A stretch of DNA of 26,122 bases from a virus: positions 1-26,122 of the IMG/VR virus record IMGVR_UViG_3300025327_000143, one strand, 5' to 3'. The stretch's first letter is position 1. Every line of letters begins with the position of its first letter. Positions 3,521 to 24,105 of the stretch are shown one piece after another. The notes beneath the pieces were generated by a model that was given only the letters and a program-made list of their open reading frames with translations, was not told where the DNA came from and ran no database searches. The translations under genes were made by a program, and so were the position numbers.

Positions 3521-3853
3521 GTGAGCGACAAAACTTTCAAGATAGATGCAGAAGGCGACACGGTTTACGTGATGGATAACACACACTACTGTGAGAACGT
3601 GAAAGCAGTTGTGCTGTTCCCGGAGTCTGCTTGCATATGCGGCGATGAGCTAGTGTACACCGAATCCAACCTCCAAGCCCGCCTCACCCAAGTAAAGGCG
3701 GAGGCGTATCGACGGTGTGCCGCCGAAATCTTTTGGAATTGGGTGGACAAACTCCCCAATGACACAGCGTTCCAAGTGCAAGTAACTATTGAAGGATGGG
3801 CTAATGACGCCGAGCGCCCGCAGACCGCCAGCGCGGGGGAGGAGGAACGGTGA
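3521..3853 (+). CDS. Hypothetical protein, 110 aa
   Basis: GTG start at 3521 behind a very good AAGGAGGG. The first 45 residues look beta-rich (TFKIDAEGDTVYVMDN) and contain CICGDE. The middle holds the module ESNLQARLTQVKAEAYRRCA shared with the gene before it. The tail (PQTASAGEEER) is encoded by a spacer-like stretch carrying the GGAGGAGGAA ribosome site of the next gene. No function assigned. Confidence 0.6.
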   Translation: MSDKTFKIDAEGDTVYVMDNTHYCENVKAVVLFPESACICGDELVYTESNLQARLTQVKAEAYRRCAAEIFWNWVDKLPNDTAFQVQVTIEGWANDAERPQTASAGEEER

Positions 3854-9001: not shown

Positions 9002-10555
9002 TTGCCTGCACAGCTAGTTGTCACCACCGATTTGATCCGCGAATCGGAAGCGGAGCTGCGTTCGGAATGTCAGACTGACCTATGGCGGCTGATCCACATT
9101 CTCTACCCGCCCCCAGCATACCAGTGGAGTGAGCGGGTACACCGGCCAATCTGCGACCGGATGTTTATCCGCAAGAATCCAGCCCTGGCCATTGCCGACT
9201 CGCATCCGTGCAAAAAGCGGCTGTGGCTCGATCCGCGCAATCACTTCAAAACCACCATAGACATTGCCGATCTCGTTCAGTGGATTCTCTGCTACCCGGA
9301 CGTGCGCATCCTGATTGCTTCGGGCACCAGGGACAACGCCATCAAGATGCTCAAGGCGGTCAAGGCCCATTTCCAGTACAACGAGTATCTCCGCTACTTC
9401 TTCAAGGAGTTGTGCCCCAACGCCAAGAACGTAGAGGATTTCGGCACGCTGGACGCCTTCACCTGTCCTGGCCGCAAAGATAAGACTTTGCGCGAGCCTA
9501 CCTGTTCGGTTGCTTCGCCCGATTCAACCGTGGCCGGCATGCACTATGAAGTGTTGAAGTTCGACGACCTGGTGAATGAAACCAACTCCCGCACCAAGGA
9601 AGGCATCGCCCAGGTCAACAACTGGTTCAAACTCACGAATCCGCTGCTCGAGCGCGGCGGATACCGCGACGTGATCGGAACTCGTTACGATTACAGTGAT
9701 CTGTACGGGGAAATCCTGGGTGACAGCTTCCAAAAAGATTATTGCCTAGCCGAATTGCACAAGGATTATCTAGTTACCAAGCGGTCGTTTTTCCTGCCGG
9801 ATGGTTCCGTGCTGTTTCCTGAGCGGTACGACCGGGAGTTTTACGAAGCAGAGCGGCGGGAAATGGGTTCCTACAACGCATCTGCACAATACCTAAATGA
9901 GCCGGTGCCGGATTCAAGCGCCTTTTTCCCGCGCGATGTGGTCGAGAAGTCCATGATCTCCCGTGACAAGCTGCCCAAGCAGCGCTCCTATTTCCAGACA
10001 CTCGATCTGGCTGCCAGCCAGTCCGACGACAGCGACAACAACGCTCTGGTTACTTGCTCCGTTGGCTGGCTCAAGGACGCCAAAGAAGCCACGCTGTTTG
10101 TCGAAGATATTTATGCGGGGCACATCCTGCCGGAAACCTTGGTCGAGTATATGTACAAGAAATACGCCAAGTTCAAGCCCGCGCAGATACGCACCGAGGA
10201 AGTTGCGTTTACCGTACTGCTTAGGCCCATTGCGCACTTGATGGCCCCGCGTTTCGGCTTTCATCTGCCGCTGGTGTGGATACCGCGCGACACCAAGCAG
10301 AGCAAGGAAGCCCGCATTGCCGCGTTGCAGCCATTCTTCGAGCGCGGGCAGATCAGGATTGTTGAGGACTGCCCGCACCGGGACGCGCTGTTTAATGAGC
10401 TGGTACGCTTCCCGAAATACAAGCGCCGCGACATTGCCGACGCGCTGGCGGACCACTTGGCATTTCTGGAAATGTACAGTTACGCACCGGAGGAACAGAG
10501 TTTGCCGGAATTGACCAGCCGTTGCGGAAACCCGCGGTTGGGTCTGGTTGCTTGA
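9002..10555 (+). CDS. terL: Terminase large subunit, 517 aa
   Basis: ATP-driven packaging motor and headful nuclease. ATPase part: an unusual Walker A, P78-R-N-H-F-K83-T-T85, and a Walker B at VLKFDD (D188, D189). Nuclease part: acidic residues in TLDLAAS (about D335), EEVAF (about E400) and DIADALADHL (about D477-D480), the RNase H-like arrangement of this family. Length is normal. It starts at TTG 9002 directly after the previous TAA, with only a weak ribosome site, so coupling to the upstream gene is likely. The late genes follow. Confidence 0.93.
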   Translation: MPAQLVVTTDLIRESEAELRSECQTDLWRLIHILYPPPAYQWSERVHRPICDRMFIRKNPALAIADSHPCKKRLWLDPRNHFKTTIDIADLVQWILCYPDVRILIASGTRDNAIKMLKAVKAHFQYNEYLRYFFKELCPNAKNVEDFGTLDAFTCPGRKDKTLREPTCSVASPDSTVAGMHYEVLKFDDLVNETNSRTKEGIAQVNNWFKLTNPLLERGGYRDVIGTRYDYSDLYGEILGDSFQKDYCLAELHKDYLVTKRSFFLPDGSVLFPERYDREFYEAERREMGSYNASAQYLNEPVPDSSAFFPRDVVEKSMISRDKLPKQRSYFQTLDLAASQSDDSDNNALVTCSVGWLKDAKEATLFVEDIYAGHILPETLVEYMYKKYAKFKPAQIRTEEVAFTVLLRPIAHLMAPRFGFHLPLVWIPRDTKQSKEARIAALQPFFERGQIRIVEDCPHRDALFNELVRFPKYKRRDIADALADHLAFLEMYSYAPEEQSLPELTSRCGNPRLGLVA

Positions 10556-14129: not shown

Positions 14130-14860
14130 TGGCTGGCACGTTCATCAACATTGACCAGGCCGACGGAGCGGCGTCTGCCGCCAGCATCGCCACTCCCGGC
14201 ATCAGCCACACGGCAGGGAATTGGCTGGCAGCGTTTGTCTATTGGGAAGTGGACACTGGAACCGTTACCGGGGTCACCAACGCCGCTGGAGACACTTGGA
14301 CGCAGGTAGCCGGTGCACTCACCCGCTACCCGGACACTTACGGCGGCTCTGTTGATGTCTGGGTAGTTGCAAGCACTATCGGGCACGCTACCGACGTGGT
14401 GACAGCCGCATTTAGTCCCAATCAAGGTAGCCGCGCCATCTTTGTCGCTCAATACTCCAGCGACAACGGCATTCCCACCACCAAAGAAACGATTGCATCC
14501 GGCCAAGATACCAACACCAGCATTACCAGCGCCAGTTTCAGTCCAGCCGCATCCGGCAACCTGAATATCTCGTTGTTGTTGTCCGACCCGCCCGATTTGA
14601 CGTGGACAGCCGATGCTAACTATGTCAAACGCGGGGTGGATGGCGTGCACAACGCCTATCAAGACCGTATCGGAGCGCCTTCCGGGGCGCAAACGGCCAG
14701 TGGAACAATGTCAGCATCAGATCATATAGGCGTTCTAGTGCTGTCGTTTGTACCCACTGCGGCAGCGGGAGTACAAACCCCGCGAGGCTTGCAGACGGCC
14801 TTGGGACTGCAAACAGCTAGATTACTTCAAGTGCCGCTTGGTTTACAGGTGCCTAGATAA
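14129..14860 (+). CDS. Beta-sandwich structural protein with hexapeptide tail, 243 aa
   Basis: Likely paralogue of the gene before it, with the same strand order through residue ~213. The last 30 residues are five hexapeptides: GVQTPR, GLQTAL, GLQTAR, LLQVPL, GLQVPR. Their codons differ between copies, so the repeat is kept at the protein level. A regular hydrophobic/Gln tail of this type could form a beta-helix, trimer or attachment peg. ATG 14129 overlaps the previous stop and the stop overlaps the portal ATG. Confidence 0.6.
   Translation: MAGTFINIDQADGAASAASIATPGISHTAGNWLAAFVYWEVDTGTVTGVTNAAGDTWTQVAGALTRYPDTYGGSVDVWVVASTIGHATDVVTAAFSPNQGSRAIFVAQYSSDNGIPTTKETIASGQDTNTSITSASFSPAASGNLNISLLLSDPPDLTWTADANYVKRGVDGVHNAYQDRIGAPSGAQTASGTMSASDHIGVLVLSFVPTAAAGVQTPRGLQTALGLQTARLLQVPLGLQVPR
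14768..14857 (+). repeat. Five hexapeptide repeats encoded in tandem
   Basis: Five 18-base units encode [G/L]-[V/L]-Q-[T/V]-[P/A]-[R/L]. Leu uses TTG, CTG, CTT and TTA, and Gln uses CAA and CAG among the copies, so the DNA has diverged while the peptide pattern has not. Confidence 0.75.
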
Positions 14861-16941
14861 TGGCCATAGGCGACGCTCCAGATAAACTGATCGCTCTGAC
14901 CTACACAGACGGGCGCGCTCCCGGTGCTACGGACTATGAGAGCGAATCGCTCAAGCCCCCGGATCGCACTGACAAAGCCGATATTAAGCCTGCGCCGTCC
15001 AAGTGGACAGACGCCTTCGCGCTGCGCGCCGTACTGGCCGATTTCAGCAAGTTCAGCCAATTCAGGATGCAGCATTGGGACCAGCGATGGACGGACAATG
15101 ACCGCATCCTGCATGCCAACGTCGAGCAGAAAACATGGCCCGGCACAGACGTTCCCCGCGCGAGCATCGGCGTAAAGCTCGAACAGCAGCAGCTTGAAAG
15201 TCTGCTGCCGTACTTGCATGAAGGCATCTTTTCCGCGCCCGACGGTATTTGGTTTGATCTGTTTCCGCGTCCGACTACGCCGCCGGATGCTGCGATTGCC
15301 GCCAGGGAGTTTATGGCGATGCAAACGGACTACGCTGAAGTGGAAGCGCAGTTCCAGCATGTGTTCCGATCGCTGGGGCATCACGGCACGGGCTGTATCA
15401 AGGTCAGTTGGTGCAAGAAGCGATACGACCGGGCGGAATGGAAGCCCGCCACGGTTGCGAACAGGAGCGGTTACGGCGGCCAGAGCACCATGCAGCGGAG
15501 CAGCTACACTGAATACCAGGGTTACCCAGAAGCAACCTACGTCAGCCTGCGCGATCTGTATGTGGACTCCTCGCTCAAGGTGCCGGATCTCCAGAAGGCC
15601 CAAGTCGTCATTCAGCGCGGATTCATAGGTTATGACGAACTACTGCGCATGGCCGAATCAGACAAGGACTACAAAATACCCGGCAAAGCAGAATTGCAGC
15701 AGTATATGTCCAGCAGGTCAACACCCAAGGAAGCTCCGGCAGACAGTGAGCGCCGCCAGTCGCTATCAGAGGCTGGGCAGACCGAGATTCACATGCAAGG
15801 CACGACCGACCCGGCCCGCGCTCGCTTTGAGGTGCTGGAATACTGGAGCCAGGACCGCTTCGTGGTTGTGCTGGAACGCAAATGGCTCATCTGCAACAAG
15901 AAGAATCCATACGGCTTCATCCCGTACCGTAGTTGCAACTTTCAGGACGTGCTCGATTCGCTCTACGGCAAGGGCTTGGCCGAGATTCTGGAATACGAGC
16001 AGATGCTGCAACAGGGGTTGATTAATAGTCACTTAGACGAAGTGGCGCTGATTATTCACGGGGCCTTAGTAGTGCAGGTTGGCTCCGTGCAGAACAAGAA
16101 CGAACTCCGTCCTCGGCCCGGCCAGGTCATCTTTAGCACCAATGCGGAGACGGGCATCCGCGAACTGAAACGTTCCGCCGTCACGCAAGACTGGTTCATC
16201 GCCTTGCAGCAATCTCAGATGCGGGCGCAACAGTACACAGGCCTGTCCGACATCATCACGCAGGGCGCGCCTGGGGTTGCCAGTAGCGTCACGCGCACGG
16301 CCAGGGGCGTAAGCGCATTGGCTGGAGCTGCCCACAGCCGTATCCAGTACGTTATCGAACGCATCGAGAACAGGATGATCGTGCCCATGCTTGGGGACTT
16401 CATCAAGCTCAATAAGCTATTCCTCGATCCTCAGAAGCGTATCCCGGTGCTCGGACCAAATGGCGCGCAGGCGCTGTTTGATCCGTTGGCGATCCTCAAC
16501 CACGAGTTTCGCGTTGAACTCCGCGCCGGGAGCAAGATGGCCGCTAAGTCCGCCATGCAGCAGACCTTGCCCATCGTGCTGCAAACCGTCATGGCGGCAA
16601 TCGAGCCGATGCGGCAGCAGGGTGTAAAGACCAACATCCCTGCGATTGTGCGGGACATGCTGGAAGCCTATGGTTGGCGCAACCGCAACGATTGGTTTAA
16701 GGCCATGTCGCCCGAAGAAATGCAGGCCATGCAGCAGGAGCAGCAAGGCCCGGAAGTACAGAAACAGCAGTTCAAGGCGGAACGGGAGGAAGCGCGATTT
16801 GACGCGCAGCACGCCAAGATGGAGGAGCAGGCAGGGTTGGACATTCTCAAGGATGTGCTGAGTAAAGCCTTGGAGGGCAAGCCCGCCGCCGCCAACACGC
16901 TGCGAATGGCTCTGGCCTCGATAGGAGCGGAAGATGCCTGA
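14860..16941 (+). CDS. Portal (head-tail connector) protein, 693 aa
   Basis: Forms the ring at the capsid vertex through which DNA enters and leaves. Length, position after terminase and before scaffold and capsid, and the core (FQDVLDSLYGKGLAEILEYE, QMLQQGLINSHLDE, PGQVIFSTNAE, TGLSDIITQG) match large podovirus-type portals. The C-terminal 75 residues are Gln/Glu-rich and helical (MQAMQQEQQGPEVQKQQFKA), like the barrel or clip tail of such portals. An internal low-complexity region near residues 285-310 is probably a surface loop. ATG 14860 overlaps the previous stop; the end overlaps the next ATG by 8 bases. Confidence 0.85.
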   Translation: MAIGDAPDKLIALTYTDGRAPGATDYESESLKPPDRTDKADIKPAPSKWTDAFALRAVLADFSKFSQFRMQHWDQRWTDNDRILHANVEQKTWPGTDVPRASIGVKLEQQQLESLLPYLHEGIFSAPDGIWFDLFPRPTTPPDAAIAAREFMAMQTDYAEVEAQFQHVFRSLGHHGTGCIKVSWCKKRYDRAEWKPATVANRSGYGGQSTMQRSSYTEYQGYPEATYVSLRDLYVDSSLKVPDLQKAQVVIQRGFIGYDELLRMAESDKDYKIPGKAELQQYMSSRSTPKEAPADSERRQSLSEAGQTEIHMQGTTDPARARFEVLEYWSQDRFVVVLERKWLICNKKNPYGFIPYRSCNFQDVLDSLYGKGLAEILEYEQMLQQGLINSHLDEVALIIHGALVVQVGSVQNKNELRPRPGQVIFSTNAETGIRELKRSAVTQDWFIALQQSQMRAQQYTGLSDIITQGAPGVASSVTRTARGVSALAGAAHSRIQYVIERIENRMIVPMLGDFIKLNKLFLDPQKRIPVLGPNGAQALFDPLAILNHEFRVELRAGSKMAAKSAMQQTLPIVLQTVMAAIEPMRQQGVKTNIPAIVRDMLEAYGWRNRNDWFKAMSPEEMQAMQQEQQGPEVQKQQFKAEREEARFDAQHAKMEEQAGLDILKDVLSKALEGKPAAANTLRMALASIGAEDA

Positions 16942-17284: not shown

Positions 17285-17589
17285 ACTTGCCATTCCTCAA
17301 GCCTCGTAGTGCCAGAAACGTTTCCACTACAGTGCCGCACGTCCGCCCGGCCGCTGATGACAAAGAGTGCGCAGAGCGAGCCGCTGCATTCATCATGCAG
17401 CCTTTTTGGCCGGAAATGCTGTCCATGCTGGCCGAGACAAGGGCGATGGCGCTAGAAGAAATGCGCAAGCGGCATGATACGTGGGATGAAGACGCCCGCG
17501 CCCTGGAGTATTGGCGAGCCATTGACGAACTGGCCATGCGCATTGAAACGTATCCGCAGTCCATCATCGAACAAGGAGAACAGTCGTGA
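17281..17589 (+). CDS. Helical hypothetical protein, 102 aa
   Basis: ATG 17281 overlaps the previous stop; upstream AAGGTGGGCAG is a fair ribosome site. Mostly helical from residue 28 on (ECAERAAAFIMQPFWPEML, then TRAMALEEMRKRHDTW). Small helical proteins between portal and scaffold genes are common and usually assist head assembly. No named family. The stop overlaps the scaffold GTG. Confidence 0.6.
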   Translation: MNLPFLKPRSARNVSTTVPHVRPAADDKECAERAAAFIMQPFWPEMLSMLAETRAMALEEMRKRHDTWDEDARALEYWRAIDELAMRIETYPQSIIEQGEQS

Positions 17590-18311
17590 GCGAGACAGCC
17601 ACACAGGAACAAAAGAAAGTGCGCATCGAGATACCGGGAGTAGATGGCAGTGGTGCCCAAGTATTCGAGGGCGAGACCGAAACGGAAGTGCTTGGCAAGC
17701 TCCAGCAAGCCCAGGAGCATGCCAGCAAGAAGATACGCGAACAGCAACAGCAGTTGGACGATTTACAGGCCCGCTACACGCCAGCTCCAGCCGCACCGGA
17801 GGCCGATGGGTTTGATCGCAACGGTTACTTCAACGTACTGTATGAAGACCCGCGCAAAGCTTTCGACCAGATGTTTGAGCAGCGATTCGGCATGAGCGTC
17901 AAGGACGCTGCAACCGAATGGCAGAGCATGCGCGAGGCCAGCGACTTTATCAACGTCAACAAGGTTGGGCATGCGCTTATTGCCAAGCACCCGGAACTGC
18001 GCCAGGTGACGCCGGAAGACAGCAACGAAAACGCCAAGATGCTCGACAAGATCATGGCCGAGAACAAGTGGGAATACACTCTGGGCAACTTGGAAGCCGC
18101 CTACGCTGTGGCAACTACGCAGGGGAAGATGCGGCTCCCAGCCAAGCCGAATACGGAGGCCGATGTGCCGCCACATCCCCCCGCCACGCTAACCGGACAT
18201 TCCGGCGGCGGGGAACCGGCCGACGAAAAAGAATTGCTGCGCACCATGAGCACTGACCAGGTGCGTGAGTACTACATCAACAAGCACAAGAACGCACAGC
18301 GCAGCACCTAG
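17586..18311 (+). CDS. Probable capsid scaffolding protein, 241 aa
   Basis: Lies between portal and major capsid genes, the standard place of a scaffold, which shapes the procapsid and leaves before DNA packaging. GTG 17586 follows AAGGAGAACA. Residues ~32-62 are a Gln-rich coiled coil (LQQAQEHASKKIREQQQQL), followed by a Pro/Ala linker, a helical domain (PRKAFDQMFEQRFGMSV) and a short basic helical C-terminus (REYYINKHKN) of the kind that contacts the coat protein. Identification is from position and build. Confidence 0.7.
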   Translation: MSETATQEQKKVRIEIPGVDGSGAQVFEGETETEVLGKLQQAQEHASKKIREQQQQLDDLQARYTPAPAAPEADGFDRNGYFNVLYEDPRKAFDQMFEQRFGMSVKDAATEWQSMREASDFINVNKVGHALIAKHPELRQVTPEDSNENAKMLDKIMAENKWEYTLGNLEAAYAVATTQGKMRLPAKPNTEADVPPHPPATLTGHSGGGEPADEKELLRTMSTDQVREYYINKHKNAQRST

Positions 18312-18316
18312 TTTTC

Positions 18317-18387
18317 TCCCCGGATTGGGGAACAGCCAAGGGCGGATTGCCCGCAGGCAGCAACAAACCCGACTCTACGGATTGTAG
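18317..18387 (+). promoter_or_regulatory. Three tandem hairpins with identical GGATT loops
   Basis: In the 117-base leader of the capsid gene three short hairpins share the loop GGATT: TCCCC-GGATT-GGGGA (18317-18331), GGGC-GGATT-GCCC (18340-18352) and CTAC-GGATT-GTAG (18375-18387). The stems differ but each pairs perfectly, which is what selection for structure plus loop would leave. They precede AAAGGAGG and the ATG by about 40 bases. A protein- or RNA-binding element that controls capsid translation or message stability is plausible; it could also be a site in DNA. Confidence 0.6.
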
Positions 18388-18428
18388 CGAAGGGCCAGTG
18401 AAGACCTCTAAAACAAAGGAGGCCATCA

Positions 18429-19406
18429 ATGGCCTATACAGCAGCGAGCGTCTTAACTTCCAGCGCAACCATTGTCCACGACGCTTCGGCGTACTTTGAC
18501 AGGGTAGCGCTGGACAACGTGAAGAAGGCATTACGCTTCACCACGTTATGCACACCCAAGCGCCTGCCCAAACAGAGCGGCTTGGTGCACCAGATGTTCC
18601 GTTATATCCCGTTTACCACAACCTCTGCTAGCATCACTACCGCCGGCACGCAGGGCGCTGTGGGAACGGGCTTGGCAATCACCAGCGAAACCGTACAGGC
18701 TACGATTGTGCAGTATTTCGACTTCGTAAACCTGTCGGACCTGTACGTTGAAACCATCATTGACAGCGACTCCGCGCAATCCATTGCGACTGAGATGGGC
18801 TACCGGGCCGGATTGGCCGTAGACATCATCACCCGCACTGAGTTTGATGCTGGGTCAGCAACTACCTCTACTGCACTTGTTGGTTCGGCATTGGGTGCAG
18901 CCGACTTCCGCAAGGCGGCCAGCCTGCTGCGGGGCACAGATGTACGGCCCCACACCGGACCCGACTATCTCTCGTTGTCGCATCCCTATGTCCAATATGA
19001 CCTCATCAGCGACAACACGTCTGGCGGGTTCATTGACATCAACAAGTACACCGGCCCCAGCAATCCTGCGCTTTTTGAGGGCGAGGAACTGGGCAAGATT
19101 GCCGGCGTGCGTCTCGGCACATCCACCAACGTTGGAGTATCCGGCGAGGGTGCCACCACGAAGTACTGGACGTATGTGGTTGGCAAGGGTGCGGTTGCGG
19201 CGGTCAACCTGGGCGATGGCACCATCGGCGGCGGGTCTAACCCGAACGTCTGGGTGCTCGATCACAGCAAGGACAAGGCCGATCCGGCTGGCGTCATCAA
19301 GACCAGCATCGCGTACAACTTCAAGTTTGACGCGAAGCGTTTGCTGACCACCAATGACGTGGAGCGGTACAGGCAAGTTGCGGCAGACTCAACCATCGCC
19401 TCCTAG
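18429..19406 (+). CDS. Major capsid protein, N4-gp56-like, 325 aa
   Basis: Main shell protein. The sequence follows the N4-gp56 layout: an N-terminal helix, LVHQMFRYIPFTTTSASITT with the T-x-x-G segment, ATIVQYFDFVNLSDLYVETI, a long helix (TEMGYRAGLAVDIITRTEF), an ADFRKAASLLRG helix (A-domain region) and a C-terminal WVLDHS and IAYNFKFDAKRLL. Length is slightly short of many members but complete. Excellent AAAGGAGG before the ATG. As the most expressed late gene it has its own long leader with structured RNA on the upstream side. Confidence 0.85.
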   Translation: MAYTAASVLTSSATIVHDASAYFDRVALDNVKKALRFTTLCTPKRLPKQSGLVHQMFRYIPFTTTSASITTAGTQGAVGTGLAITSETVQATIVQYFDFVNLSDLYVETIIDSDSAQSIATEMGYRAGLAVDIITRTEFDAGSATTSTALVGSALGAADFRKAASLLRGTDVRPHTGPDYLSLSHPYVQYDLISDNTSGGFIDINKYTGPSNPALFEGEELGKIAGVRLGTSTNVGVSGEGATTKYWTYVVGKGAVAAVNLGDGTIGGGSNPNVWVLDHSKDKADPAGVIKTSIAYNFKFDAKRLLTTNDVERYRQVAADSTIAS

Positions 19407-19764: not shown

Positions 19765-20405
19765 TGATACACATAGCCGAAGAAGGCTACAGACTTCGCG
19801 TCCAGCACGAAGCGCCCGCCTTCTACTGCACTGGTTGCCTGTACACGACCAAGCTACTACTGCCGCTGTGCCCCAAGTGTGGGCAGGTTGGCACAATGTT
19901 GCCGGTTGCAACGCCGGAGAAATATCACGACGAAACCAAGGCAATCAAACGGGCCAGGGCCGTGAGGGACTTTAGCCCCGGCTTCGACAGCACAGCTCCC
20001 GAAGCCCAGCACGGGCGGCTCATGCTACCAGGGCAGCTATTCCCTATTCTGCGTGCAGCAGTGTCGGGTCTAGTAACCAAACGCCAGCACAATTCGGCGC
20101 TTGGGCGGGACCAGTATTCCCTGTTCGTCCCGTTTCGCGGCAAGGTGGCAGACCAGATATTTCTCTCCCCGGCAGAGCAAATGGACAGCCTGCAATTCAT
20201 CTGCAACTGCGAGGCGGGAGTAATGCCGGAGTGGGACATCATTCTCAAGAACCAAGACCAGGCACCGACCGGGCTTATTCGCGGCTGGCGCTCGGTGCTG
20301 GGCATTTTCTACAGGGCAGGCTTGATTCCCTGGGTGCCTGACGACGGACGGCGCAAGAGTGCTTGGGAGATACGCAATTCGCCAATTAAAGGAGCAACAC
20401 AGTGA
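19764..20405 (+). CDS. Hypothetical protein with N-terminal zinc ribbon, 213 aa
   Basis: Starts at ATG 19764, overlapping the previous stop (TGATG). An N-terminal ribbon is made by CTGC near residue 22 and CPKC near residue 36 with G-x-V-G after it. The rest (ARAVRDFSPGF, QLFPILRAAVSGL, DQYSLFVPFRGKVADQIFLS) is a mixed fold I do not recognise. It lies in the late operon, so it is expressed with virion genes; whether it is in the virion cannot be told from sequence. Confidence 0.6.
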   Translation: MIHIAEEGYRLRVQHEAPAFYCTGCLYTTKLLLPLCPKCGQVGTMLPVATPEKYHDETKAIKRARAVRDFSPGFDSTAPEAQHGRLMLPGQLFPILRAAVSGLVTKRQHNSALGRDQYSLFVPFRGKVADQIFLSPAEQMDSLQFICNCEAGVMPEWDIILKNQDQAPTGLIRGWRSVLGIFYRAGLIPWVPDDGRRKSAWEIRNSPIKGATQ

Positions 20406-20899
20406 GCATGACACAAGAAGAAATCCTGCAACTGATCAATACGGTAGTAGCGGCTAATGCTGAGTCGCAGAAGGAGTTTGCACGTGAGCTGGCGCAGCAA
20501 ATCGCCAATCCGCCGAAAACGGAAGAAGAACTCAAGGCACAAAAGGTTCTATGGGAAGCCCGCTGTGAAGCGGCCAGCATGGATGAAGCTGCCCGCGCAC
20601 GCAAGCGGGACTTCTGCGTCCCGTCCATGACCGACCGGCCACATCGCAGGCCCATGAATATCTTTCAGGGTTTGCACGCTGGACAGTCAGTCATCGTATG
20701 GAAGATGACGCAATACAGTTCCCGCGACCCGGAAACCAAGCAGACACTTCTCAGTAACCCGACCCCAGTTGGCGTCTGCCAATGGTGCCTCACGGAGTTC
20801 AAGCCCGGCGACCCGGATTATGCCGAGGCATTGTCCTGGGGCACGAATCAGATGGCTCACAAGGCCGACATGAACGTGCATACGGGGGATTGGGCCTGA
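20402..20899 (+). CDS. Hypothetical protein, 165 aa
   Basis: GTG 20402 overlaps the previous stop (GTGA); ATG 20408 is an alternative, and AAAGGAGC lies upstream. Residues 1-65 are helical and charged (QEEILQLINTVVAANAESQ). A C-terminal domain contains CQWCLTEF, a single Cys pair that could be half a zinc site, and a final MAHKADMNVHTGDW with two His. No family recognised. Confidence 0.6.
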   Translation: MSMTQEEILQLINTVVAANAESQKEFARELAQQIANPPKTEEELKAQKVLWEARCEAASMDEAARARKRDFCVPSMTDRPHRRPMNIFQGLHAGQSVIVWKMTQYSSRDPETKQTLLSNPTPVGVCQWCLTEFKPGDPDYAEALSWGTNQMAHKADMNVHTGDWA

Positions 20900-21030: not shown

Positions 21031-22431
21031 GTGCTGAAAGTTTACTTCTTCGGCTCGCAGAATAACGGTTGTGGGTTTTACAGAATTTGGCAACCTGCCG
21101 CCGCACTGGAGAGGCTTGGGCTGGCGGAAGTGCGCCGGGAGCCTGACCAGCCTGGCGACATAACGGCCAATCGCGCGCGCGACATCTTCGATTGGGCTGA
21201 TGTGGTGGTCTGCCAGAACTTTTCGGCGCTGTGGTCTGCCTGCATATTTGCTGCCGCCCGCGACCGTTGCGGCAAGAAGCTAATCGTGGACTTGGACGAT
21301 TCAATCTGGGACCTCCATCCCATGAATATAACTAGAACGAAAGAAGGCAAGGCGCTTTCCAGGCATTTCTCGGATGACCCACACCTGTTTTGGAGAATTA
21401 GCGATGTCAGCCCGCAGGATTGGGAGAAGGTGCAAGCGACCGTGAGTGACGAAGATCGCCAGATGTCCGACAAGCCGCTCTACAAAGACGGAACGATACT
21501 CGAACTGGAACCTGGCAAGCGCATCTTCGCGCATCAGATAAGCGCCGACGCACTGTCCAGCGCACATTTTCTGCTAGGAGCTGCCGATGCCGTTACTACC
21601 ACCAACCTACTTCTTGCAGATCGCATCCGCAAGAAATCTGGCCAGCGAAATATCCACGTCCTGCCCAACTGCCATACCGGAAGCGACTGGCCCATCAAGC
21701 AGCGACCCCCCAACGATGATGGCACTGTCTGGATTGGATGGTGCGGCTCCGTCAGCCACTATCCCGACTTCCGCGAGATTCTGCCAGTCCTGGACAGGCT
21801 GATGGCCAAGTATCCACAACTGCGCATTCAGGTGATGGGCAGCAGTTTTGATTATCTGTTCCCTCCCGCCAAGGATGCCAAGATGAAGCGCATTGGTGGT
21901 TATGGCGGTGATAACAACGACCTGGAGTGCTACGAATTTGACAAGAGCGGCGCACGGTATCCGGGCAGGATGGAGTTTCACCCACCCGTCCCCATCAGGG
22001 CATACGCCAAATGGATGTGCGACACCTGGCACGCCGACATCGGCATCGCGCCACTGGAAAATCATCCATTCAACGCGGCCAAAAGTGAACTGAAGTGGGT
22101 TGAGTATTCGCTTCTAGGAGTGCCTACCGTAGCCAGCAAAGTGGGGCCATTCAAACGAACGATCAGGCATGACCAGGACGGAAAGCTGTGCGGCAGTCCG
22201 AAGGCGTGGGGCTACGCGCTGGAGGAACTAATCGAATCGCCCGAACTCAGGCAGTCGCTGGCTGCCGCAGCTCACGCACGGGTGCGCACCGACTACGACG
22301 CCGACAAGCAAGCGCATCGCTGGATACAGAGCTATGAGAGTGTTGTTCACGAATCGGATGCTGGCCAGCCCTGCGGGTACAGAAACGCAGACCTATGCGC
22401 TGGCAGTGGAACTCAAGCGGCTGGGGCATGA
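21031..22431 (+). CDS. Glycosyltransferase, GT-B fold, 466 aa
   Basis: Transfers a sugar from a nucleotide donor. The N-terminal domain opens with GCGFYRIWQPAAAL, followed by CGKKLIVDLDDSIWDLHP (VDLDD at 86-90), a motif I associate with a group of phage and bacterial transferases. The C-terminal domain has the GT4-like donor site: VWIGWCGSVSHYPDF, then ADIGIAPLE, and KWVEYSLLGVPTVAS. GTG 21031 follows GAGGTAGGCT. The last 32 residues overlap the next gene by 98 bases in another frame and show no pattern, so the end looks like read-through after a lost stop. Acceptor and sugar are unknown. Confidence 0.75.
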   Translation: MLKVYFFGSQNNGCGFYRIWQPAAALERLGLAEVRREPDQPGDITANRARDIFDWADVVVCQNFSALWSACIFAAARDRCGKKLIVDLDDSIWDLHPMNITRTKEGKALSRHFSDDPHLFWRISDVSPQDWEKVQATVSDEDRQMSDKPLYKDGTILELEPGKRIFAHQISADALSSAHFLLGAADAVTTTNLLLADRIRKKSGQRNIHVLPNCHTGSDWPIKQRPPNDDGTVWIGWCGSVSHYPDFREILPVLDRLMAKYPQLRIQVMGSSFDYLFPPAKDAKMKRIGGYGGDNNDLECYEFDKSGARYPGRMEFHPPVPIRAYAKWMCDTWHADIGIAPLENHPFNAAKSELKWVEYSLLGVPTVASKVGPFKRTIRHDQDGKLCGSPKAWGYALEELIESPELRQSLAAAAHARVRTDYDADKQAHRWIQSYESVVHESDAGQPCGYRNADLCAGSGTQAAGA

Positions 22432-23146
22432 GGTTTGGTGTTATTCGCCAGTGCTGGGCATGACAGCCGAACGGTTGGGTGCGGCCGGCATTCAGGTGCG
22501 CGACAAGTTGCAATTCATTGATAAGCCACACGTGATCCACGGACAGCACACAGAGGCAGTACGGGCGTCCCAATTCTTCCAGGTGCCGTGGATATTCGTT
22601 TGCCACGGACCGGAGCACGAATTGGAGCGCCCCCCGGCGGGCGCGAATGCGTATGTGGCCGTCAGTCACGAGGTTGCCAGAATGATGCCGTGCGCCTCCA
22701 TTATCGCCAACTCTATAGACCTAGATAGATTCGCATTCTGTCCCACGGGCACCAAGCCGGGAAAGACGCTCCGTCTCAGCCATCACACAGGTGCGACGCC
22801 GGTATGGGACGTAGAACGATTGATCCGCGATGCTGACGTTGTGGTAACAATTGGCCGTGGCGTGTTGGAAGCGGCGGCGATGGGCAAATACGTTGTGGTG
22901 TGTGACCGTGGCCGCATGGATGGACTGTTGACATCGGAGAACTTCACGGAGTTAGCGTCCTGCAACTTTTCCGGCAGGCGGCATGGACTCGCGGACACGC
23001 CGGAGAATGTGGCGCTGCAAATCACCGCGCACAAAGCGGCTGACTTACAGGCGATACGCAAACGGGTCCAGGCGGACCATGATGTTAAGGCGGCGGCGTT
23101 GCGATACGTCGCTGTCTATGAACGGGCGGCGGGAACGCAGGTATGA
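22334..23146 (+). CDS. Glycosyltransferase, GT4-like, short form, 270 aa
   Basis: The N-terminus has the sugar-transferase pattern SPAGTETQTYALAVELKRLG, and a later segment VVVTIGRGVLEAAAMGKYVV matches the donor-binding helix of GT4 enzymes. At 270 aa it is about 100 residues shorter than typical, with the middle reduced, so it may be a minimal or weakened enzyme. ATG 22334 lies 98 bases inside the previous gene; the conserved N-terminal motif makes this start convincing. The next gene overlaps its end (ATGA). Substrates unknown. Confidence 0.7.
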   Translation: MRVLFTNRMLASPAGTETQTYALAVELKRLGHEVWCYSPVLGMTAERLGAAGIQVRDKLQFIDKPHVIHGQHTEAVRASQFFQVPWIFVCHGPEHELERPPAGANAYVAVSHEVARMMPCASIIANSIDLDRFAFCPTGTKPGKTLRLSHHTGATPVWDVERLIRDADVVVTIGRGVLEAAAMGKYVVVCDRGRMDGLLTSENFTELASCNFSGRRHGLADTPENVALQITAHKAADLQAIRKRVQADHDVKAAALRYVAVYERAAGTQV

Positions 23147-24105
23147 CAACCGTACTGTTGACGGGCGGGGCTGGATTTATCGGCTCTCACATGGTCGAGC
23201 ATCTAGTCGTCAACACAGACTGGAACATTGTTGTGCTGGACCGCCTGAGCTATGCCGGATCACTTGACCGCCTAGCGCAATATCGCGCCCATCCCCGCGT
23301 GCGATTTCACTTTCACGACATACGGGCGGCACTGCCGTCTCAACTGCTGAAACGCCTGGGCGAAATATACTTCATCATCCACGCGGCCGCCGAGACGCAT
23401 GTTGATAACAGCCTGGCCGATCCGCTCCCATTTATCGAGACGAATGTGCTGGGCACCTACAATGTGCTGCAAGCGGCCCGGCAACTATCCGTGTCGCGCT
23501 TTGTCCACATCAGCACAGACGAGGTATTCGGCCCGGCCCCGCGGGGGGTGTACTATGCCGAGGAAGACAGCCTTTCTCCGTCCAACCCCTACAGCGCATC
23601 CAAGGCTGGGTCTGATTGTCTGGCGATGGCCTGGGCCACAGGCTACGGCCTGCCGGTCGTGCTGACCAGGACCATGAATAACTTCGGGGAACGGCAACAT
23701 CCCGAAAAGTTTGTGCCACTGGTCATGCGGGCTGTACTGTGGGGCGAAACAGTTAGGATACATGCCAGCAGTGAGGGGGCCATTGGAAGCCGCAAGTGGC
23801 TGCATGCCAGAAACCACGCCGATGCAGTGCTGCACCTGCTAGTCCGTGGCGCGCTGGGCAAATATCACATTGGCGGCGACGAACACTCCAACCTGTCCAT
23901 TGCCCAGGCCATCGCGGACATCATGGAGAAGCCGTTAGCCTGCGAATTGGTAGATGCTTGCCTGAACCGGCCCGGCCACGACCTGCGCTATTCGCTGGAT
24001 GACAGCAAACTGCGTGCAACCTGGACTCCGCCTGTGCCATTCGCGGATTCGCTGCGCCGGTGCGTGCAATGGACGATGGCCCACAAGGAATGGCTGGAGG
24101 GATAA
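23143..24105 (+). CDS. NAD-dependent dehydratase, RmlB type, 320 aa
   Basis: Extended short-chain dehydrogenase that makes 4-keto-6-deoxy sugar nucleotides, most likely from dTDP-glucose. NAD site GGAGFIGSH at 8-16. Catalytic residues of dTDP-glucose 4,6-dehydratase are in place: T125-D126-E127 in STDEVFG, and Y150-x3-K154 in YSASK. The C-terminal RPGHDLRYSLDDSKL also fits RmlB. Length is normal. No nucleotidyltransferase or reductase accompanies it, so it would depend on host dTDP-glucose, feeding the two transferases before it. A related UDP- or GDP-sugar enzyme cannot be excluded. Confidence 0.85.
   Translation: MTTVLLTGGAGFIGSHMVEHLVVNTDWNIVVLDRLSYAGSLDRLAQYRAHPRVRFHFHDIRAALPSQLLKRLGEIYFIIHAAAETHVDNSLADPLPFIETNVLGTYNVLQAARQLSVSRFVHISTDEVFGPAPRGVYYAEEDSLSPSNPYSASKAGSDCLAMAWATGYGLPVVLTRTMNNFGERQHPEKFVPLVMRAVLWGETVRIHASSEGAIGSRKWLHARNHADAVLHLLVRGALGKYHIGGDEHSNLSIAQAIADIMEKPLACELVDACLNRPGHDLRYSLDDSKLRATWTPPVPFADSLRRCVQWTMAHKEWLEG

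Follow-up and report, generated by a model that had tools for sequence, protein, structure and literature searches.

Hairpin operators are already known from the start sites of phage genes. The coat operator of MS2/R17, present once in an RNA genome, has an ANYA loop and a bulged A, and the scaffolding protein of P22 autoregulates, giving post-transcriptional feedback on head assembly genes. This work describes a family of stem-loops with a GGATT (in RNA, GGAUU) loop, present as three copies in the capsid gene leader of virus record IMGVR_UViG_3300025327_000143 (G000). This 26,122-base record, a 26-kb tailed-phage fragment, was analyzed in full and is referred to here as the window. The element exists as a conserved stem-loop with covarying stems, lies on the sense strand, and is located before head genes. 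Its novelty is that a conserved loop on a stem of free sequence precedes several head genes per genome across a large family of uncultured soil phages. The element matches no Rfam family, and literature searches, whether for GGAUU loops or for RNA operators of phage head genes, returned nothing relevant.

Like the MS2/R17 operator, the element is a conserved-loop, tolerant-stem hairpin at the Shine-Dalgarno (SD) sequence of a phage gene, and its predicted folds often have an MS2-like outline, with an unpaired G below seven pairs and, beneath that G, CCC paired with SD bases. It differs in having GGAUU rather than ANYA with a bulged A, and in not being a single-copy element of an RNA genome. 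With P22 it would share feedback on head genes, which is proposed here, although P22 has no known shared RNA motif. The T4 DNA polymerase gp43 operator is likewise a conserved-loop hairpin 5′ of an initiation region, bound by a protein of a double-stranded DNA phage, but its loop is UAAC and it serves one autoregulated gene rather than several structural genes (PMC3014915). In phage Mu, the Com protein reads a short hairpin-loop motif just 5′ of the mom start codon and alters ribosome access, a mode of reading that we presume here; the Com motif is CC(N)2-3GAG and its one target concerns DNA modification, whereas GGATT occurs in 43 of 43 sites and the genes here concern head assembly (PMC6483171). 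A hairpin directly 5′ of a start codon, as in mom, is found in relatives of the window phage, and in the window only before a doubtful GTG. No match to the Com family was found among the proteins scanned. CsrA/RsmA hairpins also carry GGA in loops near the SD sequence, often in several copies, but the element departs from their ANGGA rule and has an invariant UU 3′ of GGA (PMC4894983).

The element and its surroundings in the window are as follows.

18312-18428, plus strand: capsid leader with the element, 117 nucleotides (nt), between a scaffold-like open reading frame (ORF) and the capsid ORF
18317-18331, plus strand: hairpin 1, UCCCC-GGAUU-GGGGA, folding alone at -7.6 kcal/mol
18340-18352, plus strand: hairpin 2, GGGC-GGAUU-GCCC, alone at -5.8 kcal/mol
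18368-18371, plus strand: CCCG box, at -11 to -8 of the hairpin 3 loop, in the register of the SD-proximal copies of relatives
18375-18387, plus strand: hairpin 3, CUAC-GGAUU-GUAG, the weakest alone at -1.4 kcal/mol, matched by model R1 (below)
18392-18400, plus strand: GGG, then GTG (18398-18400), positioned after hairpin 3 like the SD sequence and start codon of relatives
About 18416-18422: capsid SD sequence, inside the leader

The three hairpins at 18317-18387, with one loop and three unrelated stems, are exactly as the first-pass annotation described them, and form a tandem triple 50 to 110 nt 5′ of the capsid start. In a predicted fold of positions 18367-18400, the CCC of the box at 18368-18371 can pair with the GGG at 18392-18394. 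The GTG at 18398-18400 was considered as a real start. The ORF that follows it is short and in another frame than the capsid gene; the GTG is not conserved in the nearest independent relative and probably marks no gene. The same annotation had asked whether three equal loops might be expected by chance in a leader that it called GC-rich. That description was wrong (55.6% GC against 56.7% for the window), and the chance expectation found no support: dinucleotide shuffling of the leader produced three hairpins (stem of at least 4) sharing one 5-base loop in 0 of 20,000 trials, and none of 60 whole-window shuffles contained such a triple. When the three GGATT loops were held fixed and the remaining bases shuffled, three stems never formed (0 of 20,000), and the result was the same for the nearest relative.

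That relative, IMGVR_UViG_3300027061_000016 (L009), has an MCP (major capsid protein) about 60% and a TerL 58% identical to those of the window. Its capsid leader carries GAGCC-GGATT-GGTTC (with one G-U pair), GCCTT-GGATT-AAGGC, and ACTCACT-GGATT-AGTGAGT. All stems differ from those of the window and GGATT alone is constant; even the closing pair has changed, from C-G to T-A in two of the L009 hairpins. In an initial set of loci, a scan for clusters of at least three hairpins equal in loop and unlike in stem, within 120 to 150 nt, singled out just two cases once AT runs and overlapping or imperfect repeats were set aside: L009, and the window together with a near-identical sister record (L008/L039/L048). 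GGATT-loop hairpins number five on the plus strand and none on the minus strand of the window, and four and none on the L009 contig. The window also has a fourth hairpin, GGCC-GGATT-GGCC, at 18806-18818 within the capsid gene; L009 has GGTTT at that place, and the hairpin is probably a coding coincidence.

Beyond these two phages, relatives identified through TerL carry GGATT hairpins immediately 5′ of SD sequences. A portal alignment gathered 71 loci, or 45 once dereplicated (667 kb), in which a loop census unbiased towards GGATT found it to be the commonest sense-strand pentaloop (44 occurrences, against 27 for the runner-up). Among SD-proximal hairpins the lead is wider: GGATT accounts for 37, spread over 22 loci, and the runner-up for 6. 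The canonical layout comprises CCCG (-11 to -8), a stem of 5 to 7 pairs, a GGATT pentaloop or NGGATT hexaloop, the returning stem, AGGAG, and ATG, with nearly fixed spacing from loop to GGA (5 to 8 nt). Hairpin-led genes in relatives are the post-portal gene, the scaffold gene, and the gene for a downstream Cys/His-rich protein. The position of the hairpin relative to these homologous genes is kept, as is that in the MCP leader of the window and L009. On long contigs, the few SD-proximal copies lie mostly in the head gene cluster, with one more gene about 10 kb beyond. In the Cys-rich family, matches to the profile at E < 1e-30 have the hairpin in 15 of 15 distinct leaders; among weaker matches only L149 has one, with a terminator-like stem. 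In several phages, an extra copy lies within the 3′ part of the scaffold ORF, 200 to 390 nt upstream of the MCP gene. Where GAA comes first, the valine codon in these copies is GTT; where xCA comes first, it is GTG, with GTA in two cases. GTT and GTG are as pairing would demand, in a comparison uncorrected for shared ancestry.

Covariation was assessed at 43 sites picked by flanks and loop with pairing ignored, in a gap-free alignment (A5). All 43 have the GGATT loop, with the CCCG box in fixed register. Covariation was 0.976, compared with 0.245 +/- 0.028 after shuffling and at most 0.231 in slid controls, and double-changed cells numbered 125 against 43.1 +/- 5.3 shuffled, with double changes at all seven pairs. 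Shuffles control relatedness incompletely, but with an effect of this size, and in view of the slid controls, covariation is hardly in doubt. Compensatory stem changes thus exceed both kinds of control, the pattern by which a conserved, structured cis-regulatory RNA is recognized. Together with the fully different yet paired stems of L009, this bears out the earlier claim that loop and pairing are kept while stem bases vary. Internal G-U pairs occur in 7 sites, which favors RNA over DNA as the active form.

Model R1, built without any window sequence, has a sole match in the window, a weak one to hairpin 3 (18367-18395; 17.3 bits, E = 0.35). In 61 bacterial genomes, none acidobacterial, it reached at most 23.2 bits, against 24 to 36 bits for most canonical phage sites. 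R1 found no match in three family members (G022, G031, and G032), so the element in its R1 form is not universal in the family. As a check on specificity, the string CCCGT-N6-GGATT-N6-AGGAG was scanned over 2.9 million viral contigs, giving 55 stretches. Those with 5 to 7 pairs precede a start codon, except for an unrelated sequence encountered three times, without a start codon (L220, L234, and L241), and those before a start codon belong to the phage family of the window wherever the contig is already known. The remaining stretches have 0 to 4 pairs, nearly all of them 0 to 3; outside the phage family, therefore, the string occurs without the hairpin. At the Rfam gathering threshold nothing was detected in the window, and the hits in six relatives were confined to tRNA and group I introns.

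With a probability of roughly two in three, we take the hairpins to be a family of cis-acting RNA stem-loops that act in the mRNA and influence the initiation of translation of head-assembly genes. Their confinement to the sense strand, the G-U pairs, and the near-fixed SD spacing indicate mRNA and translation, and recognition by a protein sensitive to loop bases and hairpin shape would be expected to leave just such an invariant loop on a stem of free sequence. The recognized shape would be a variable stem with a GGAUU pentaloop or NGGAUU hexaloop. In most family members, a single copy lies directly 5′ of the SD sequence, and the adjacent CCCG box can pair with SD bases. A loop- and shape-reading protein, probably phage-encoded and possibly a head-assembly protein in feedback, would bind the hairpin and alter ribosome access; the effect may be repression or, by analogy with Mu Com, activation. 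In the window phage and L009, three stacked copies in the capsid leader could permit multivalent binding. The leading idea of the first-pass annotation, a recognized RNA element for translational control, is thereby favored on sequence grounds by L009, covariation, sense-strand bias, and SD adjacency in relatives.

A more specific proposal, which we offer tentatively, is a previously unknown post-transcriptional regulon in which a single RNA-binding protein of the phage recognizes the GGAUU stem-loops that precede scaffold, capsid, and associated genes and, through feedback, adjusts the stoichiometry of head proteins. That protein might be the scaffold or the Cys-rich protein, both encoded by hairpin-led genes. 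The Cys-rich family yielded no significant Pfam domain, no PDB match, and a poor structural model (mean pLDDT [predicted local distance difference test] score of 67), and its divergent members mostly lack the hairpin. If the element is a translational operator, it would reveal how scaffold, capsid, and accessory head proteins are kept in balance in these tailed phages, and would provide a new RNA-protein recognition pair, for which the related isolate Tunturiibacter phage Tunturi_3 (host Tunturiibacter, Acidobacteriota) offers a starting point.

Several observations weigh against control of translation initiation. The window copies do not lie at the capsid SD sequence, which places their function in the window one step further from the evidence. 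Predicted SD pairing is 0.65 against 0.57 at 181 other gene starts, a modest difference (p = 0.02), and falls to 0.58 with the CCCG bases masked; SD sequestration through CCCG is plausible from predicted folds and weakly supported by this comparison. A gene for the regulator was not identified. The trait is also patchy. The expectation that related capsid leaders carry GGATT hairpins held for L009 and for Tunturi_3, whose MCP leader carries the hexaloop form twice, and failed for L061 and L058, close relatives of Tunturi_3, and for L010, L012-L014, and L052 (36 to 42% MCP identity); more distant MCP relatives such as L010 and L012-L014 have short leaders.

Of the alternatives, an mRNA processing or stability element, i.e., a nuclease site or a decay-blocking hairpin rather than a translational operator, retains the most credit and is nonetheless improbable. 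Repeated hairpins can stabilize late mRNAs, but a pure stability hairpin would have no need of an invariant loop. As for nuclease sites, T4 RegB cuts GGAG/GGAU in initiation regions, and GGAU is present in every loop of the SD-proximal sites. Strong RegB sites, however, carry an A-rich 3′ consensus, and RNA structure is protective against RegB (PMC3014915); moreover, a RegB homologue (PF10715) was present in none of nine phage records.

Host CsrA/RsmA sites, at which several GGA loop hairpins per leader near the SD sequence would repress translation or be titrated by phage mRNA, are less likely again. CsrA leaders resemble the element in having GGA in hairpin loops, multiple copies 22 to 35 nt apart, and, as in the relatives, SD proximity (PMC4894983). 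CsrA requires ANGGA, however (324 of 328 targets; CANGGANG hexaloops) (PMC4894983), and the A at -2 of GGA occurs in only 9 of 43 sites and in one of the three in the window. GGA also adjoins the closing pair at most sites, the invariant UU is not a CsrA requirement, and csrA was found in none of the nine phage records.

An element acting at the transcription level, either nut/put-like antitermination with an N-like protein or a DNA cruciform or operator, seems about as unlikely as CsrA. Hairpins of the boxB type also carry conserved pentaloops, but the near-fixed SD register and the placement before individual genes fit translation better; the stems could extrude in DNA, but the one-strand bias and G-U pairs speak against a DNA form. 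Chance or codon-driven coincidence, of which the lone coding hairpin at 18806-18818 is an example, is refuted for the leader triple by the shuffles with and without fixed loops, the loop census, and the covariation, and is close to negligible overall.

The head-gene region of the window contains the following features.

9002-10555: TerL gene (phrog_38)
14860-16941: SU10-type portal gene
17586-18311, plus strand: scaffold-like ORF, matching the hairpin-led gene of relatives (25% over 182 amino acids, E = 7e-5, for the L075 ORF; E = 2e-11 for L132)
18429-19406, plus strand: MCP gene (phrog_1357, E = 6e-21)

More genes follow downstream of the MCP gene, one of which encodes an SU10-type adaptor, and glycosyltransferase and nucleotide-sugar epimerase genes (21031-24105) lie between the head genes and the adaptor gene. 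The uncharacterized Cys/His-rich family (C-x-H ... H ... C-x2-C; A6 family; L115, L112, and L099) is encoded downstream of the MCP gene across the wider family, with a weak match in the window at 20402-20899 (E = 1e-4) and paralogues in the post-portal gene of some phages.

Some further observations concern the leaders of relatives. L110 has near-identical leaders at 3715 and 4199, about 480 nt apart, one with a mismatched stem (GTGCT/AACAC) that is perhaps a decaying duplicate. In other MCP relatives (L022, L023, L029, and L031), the capsid leader contains a long hairpin that resembles a terminator and has a T run. A palindrome just 5′ of many sites, GTCC-N7-GGAC, was considered as a second leader hairpin and rejected, as it is dispersed genome-wide and absent from the window and L009. 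Copies of this 15-bp palindrome, in most cases GTCCA/G-N5-TGGAC, number 60 in 105 kb of G014 (L173-L178), where 5 have a spacer of 6 or 8, as well as 53 in 93 kb of G016 (L198-L202) and 9 in G018; they lie in genes and between them and resemble a dispersed operator or stoperator.

Finally, in G013, G015, G016, G019, G023, and G024, the match to the capsid gene is broken into segments separated by about 1 kb. Rfam group I introns lie 3′ of the portal gene in L099 (16408-16593), L112 (15672-15854), and L114 (17127-17309), and in L068 an HNH endonuclease ORF follows the scaffold gene. Dense tRNA arrays occupy the first 3 kb of L099, L101, L114, and L128, upstream of the structural genes.
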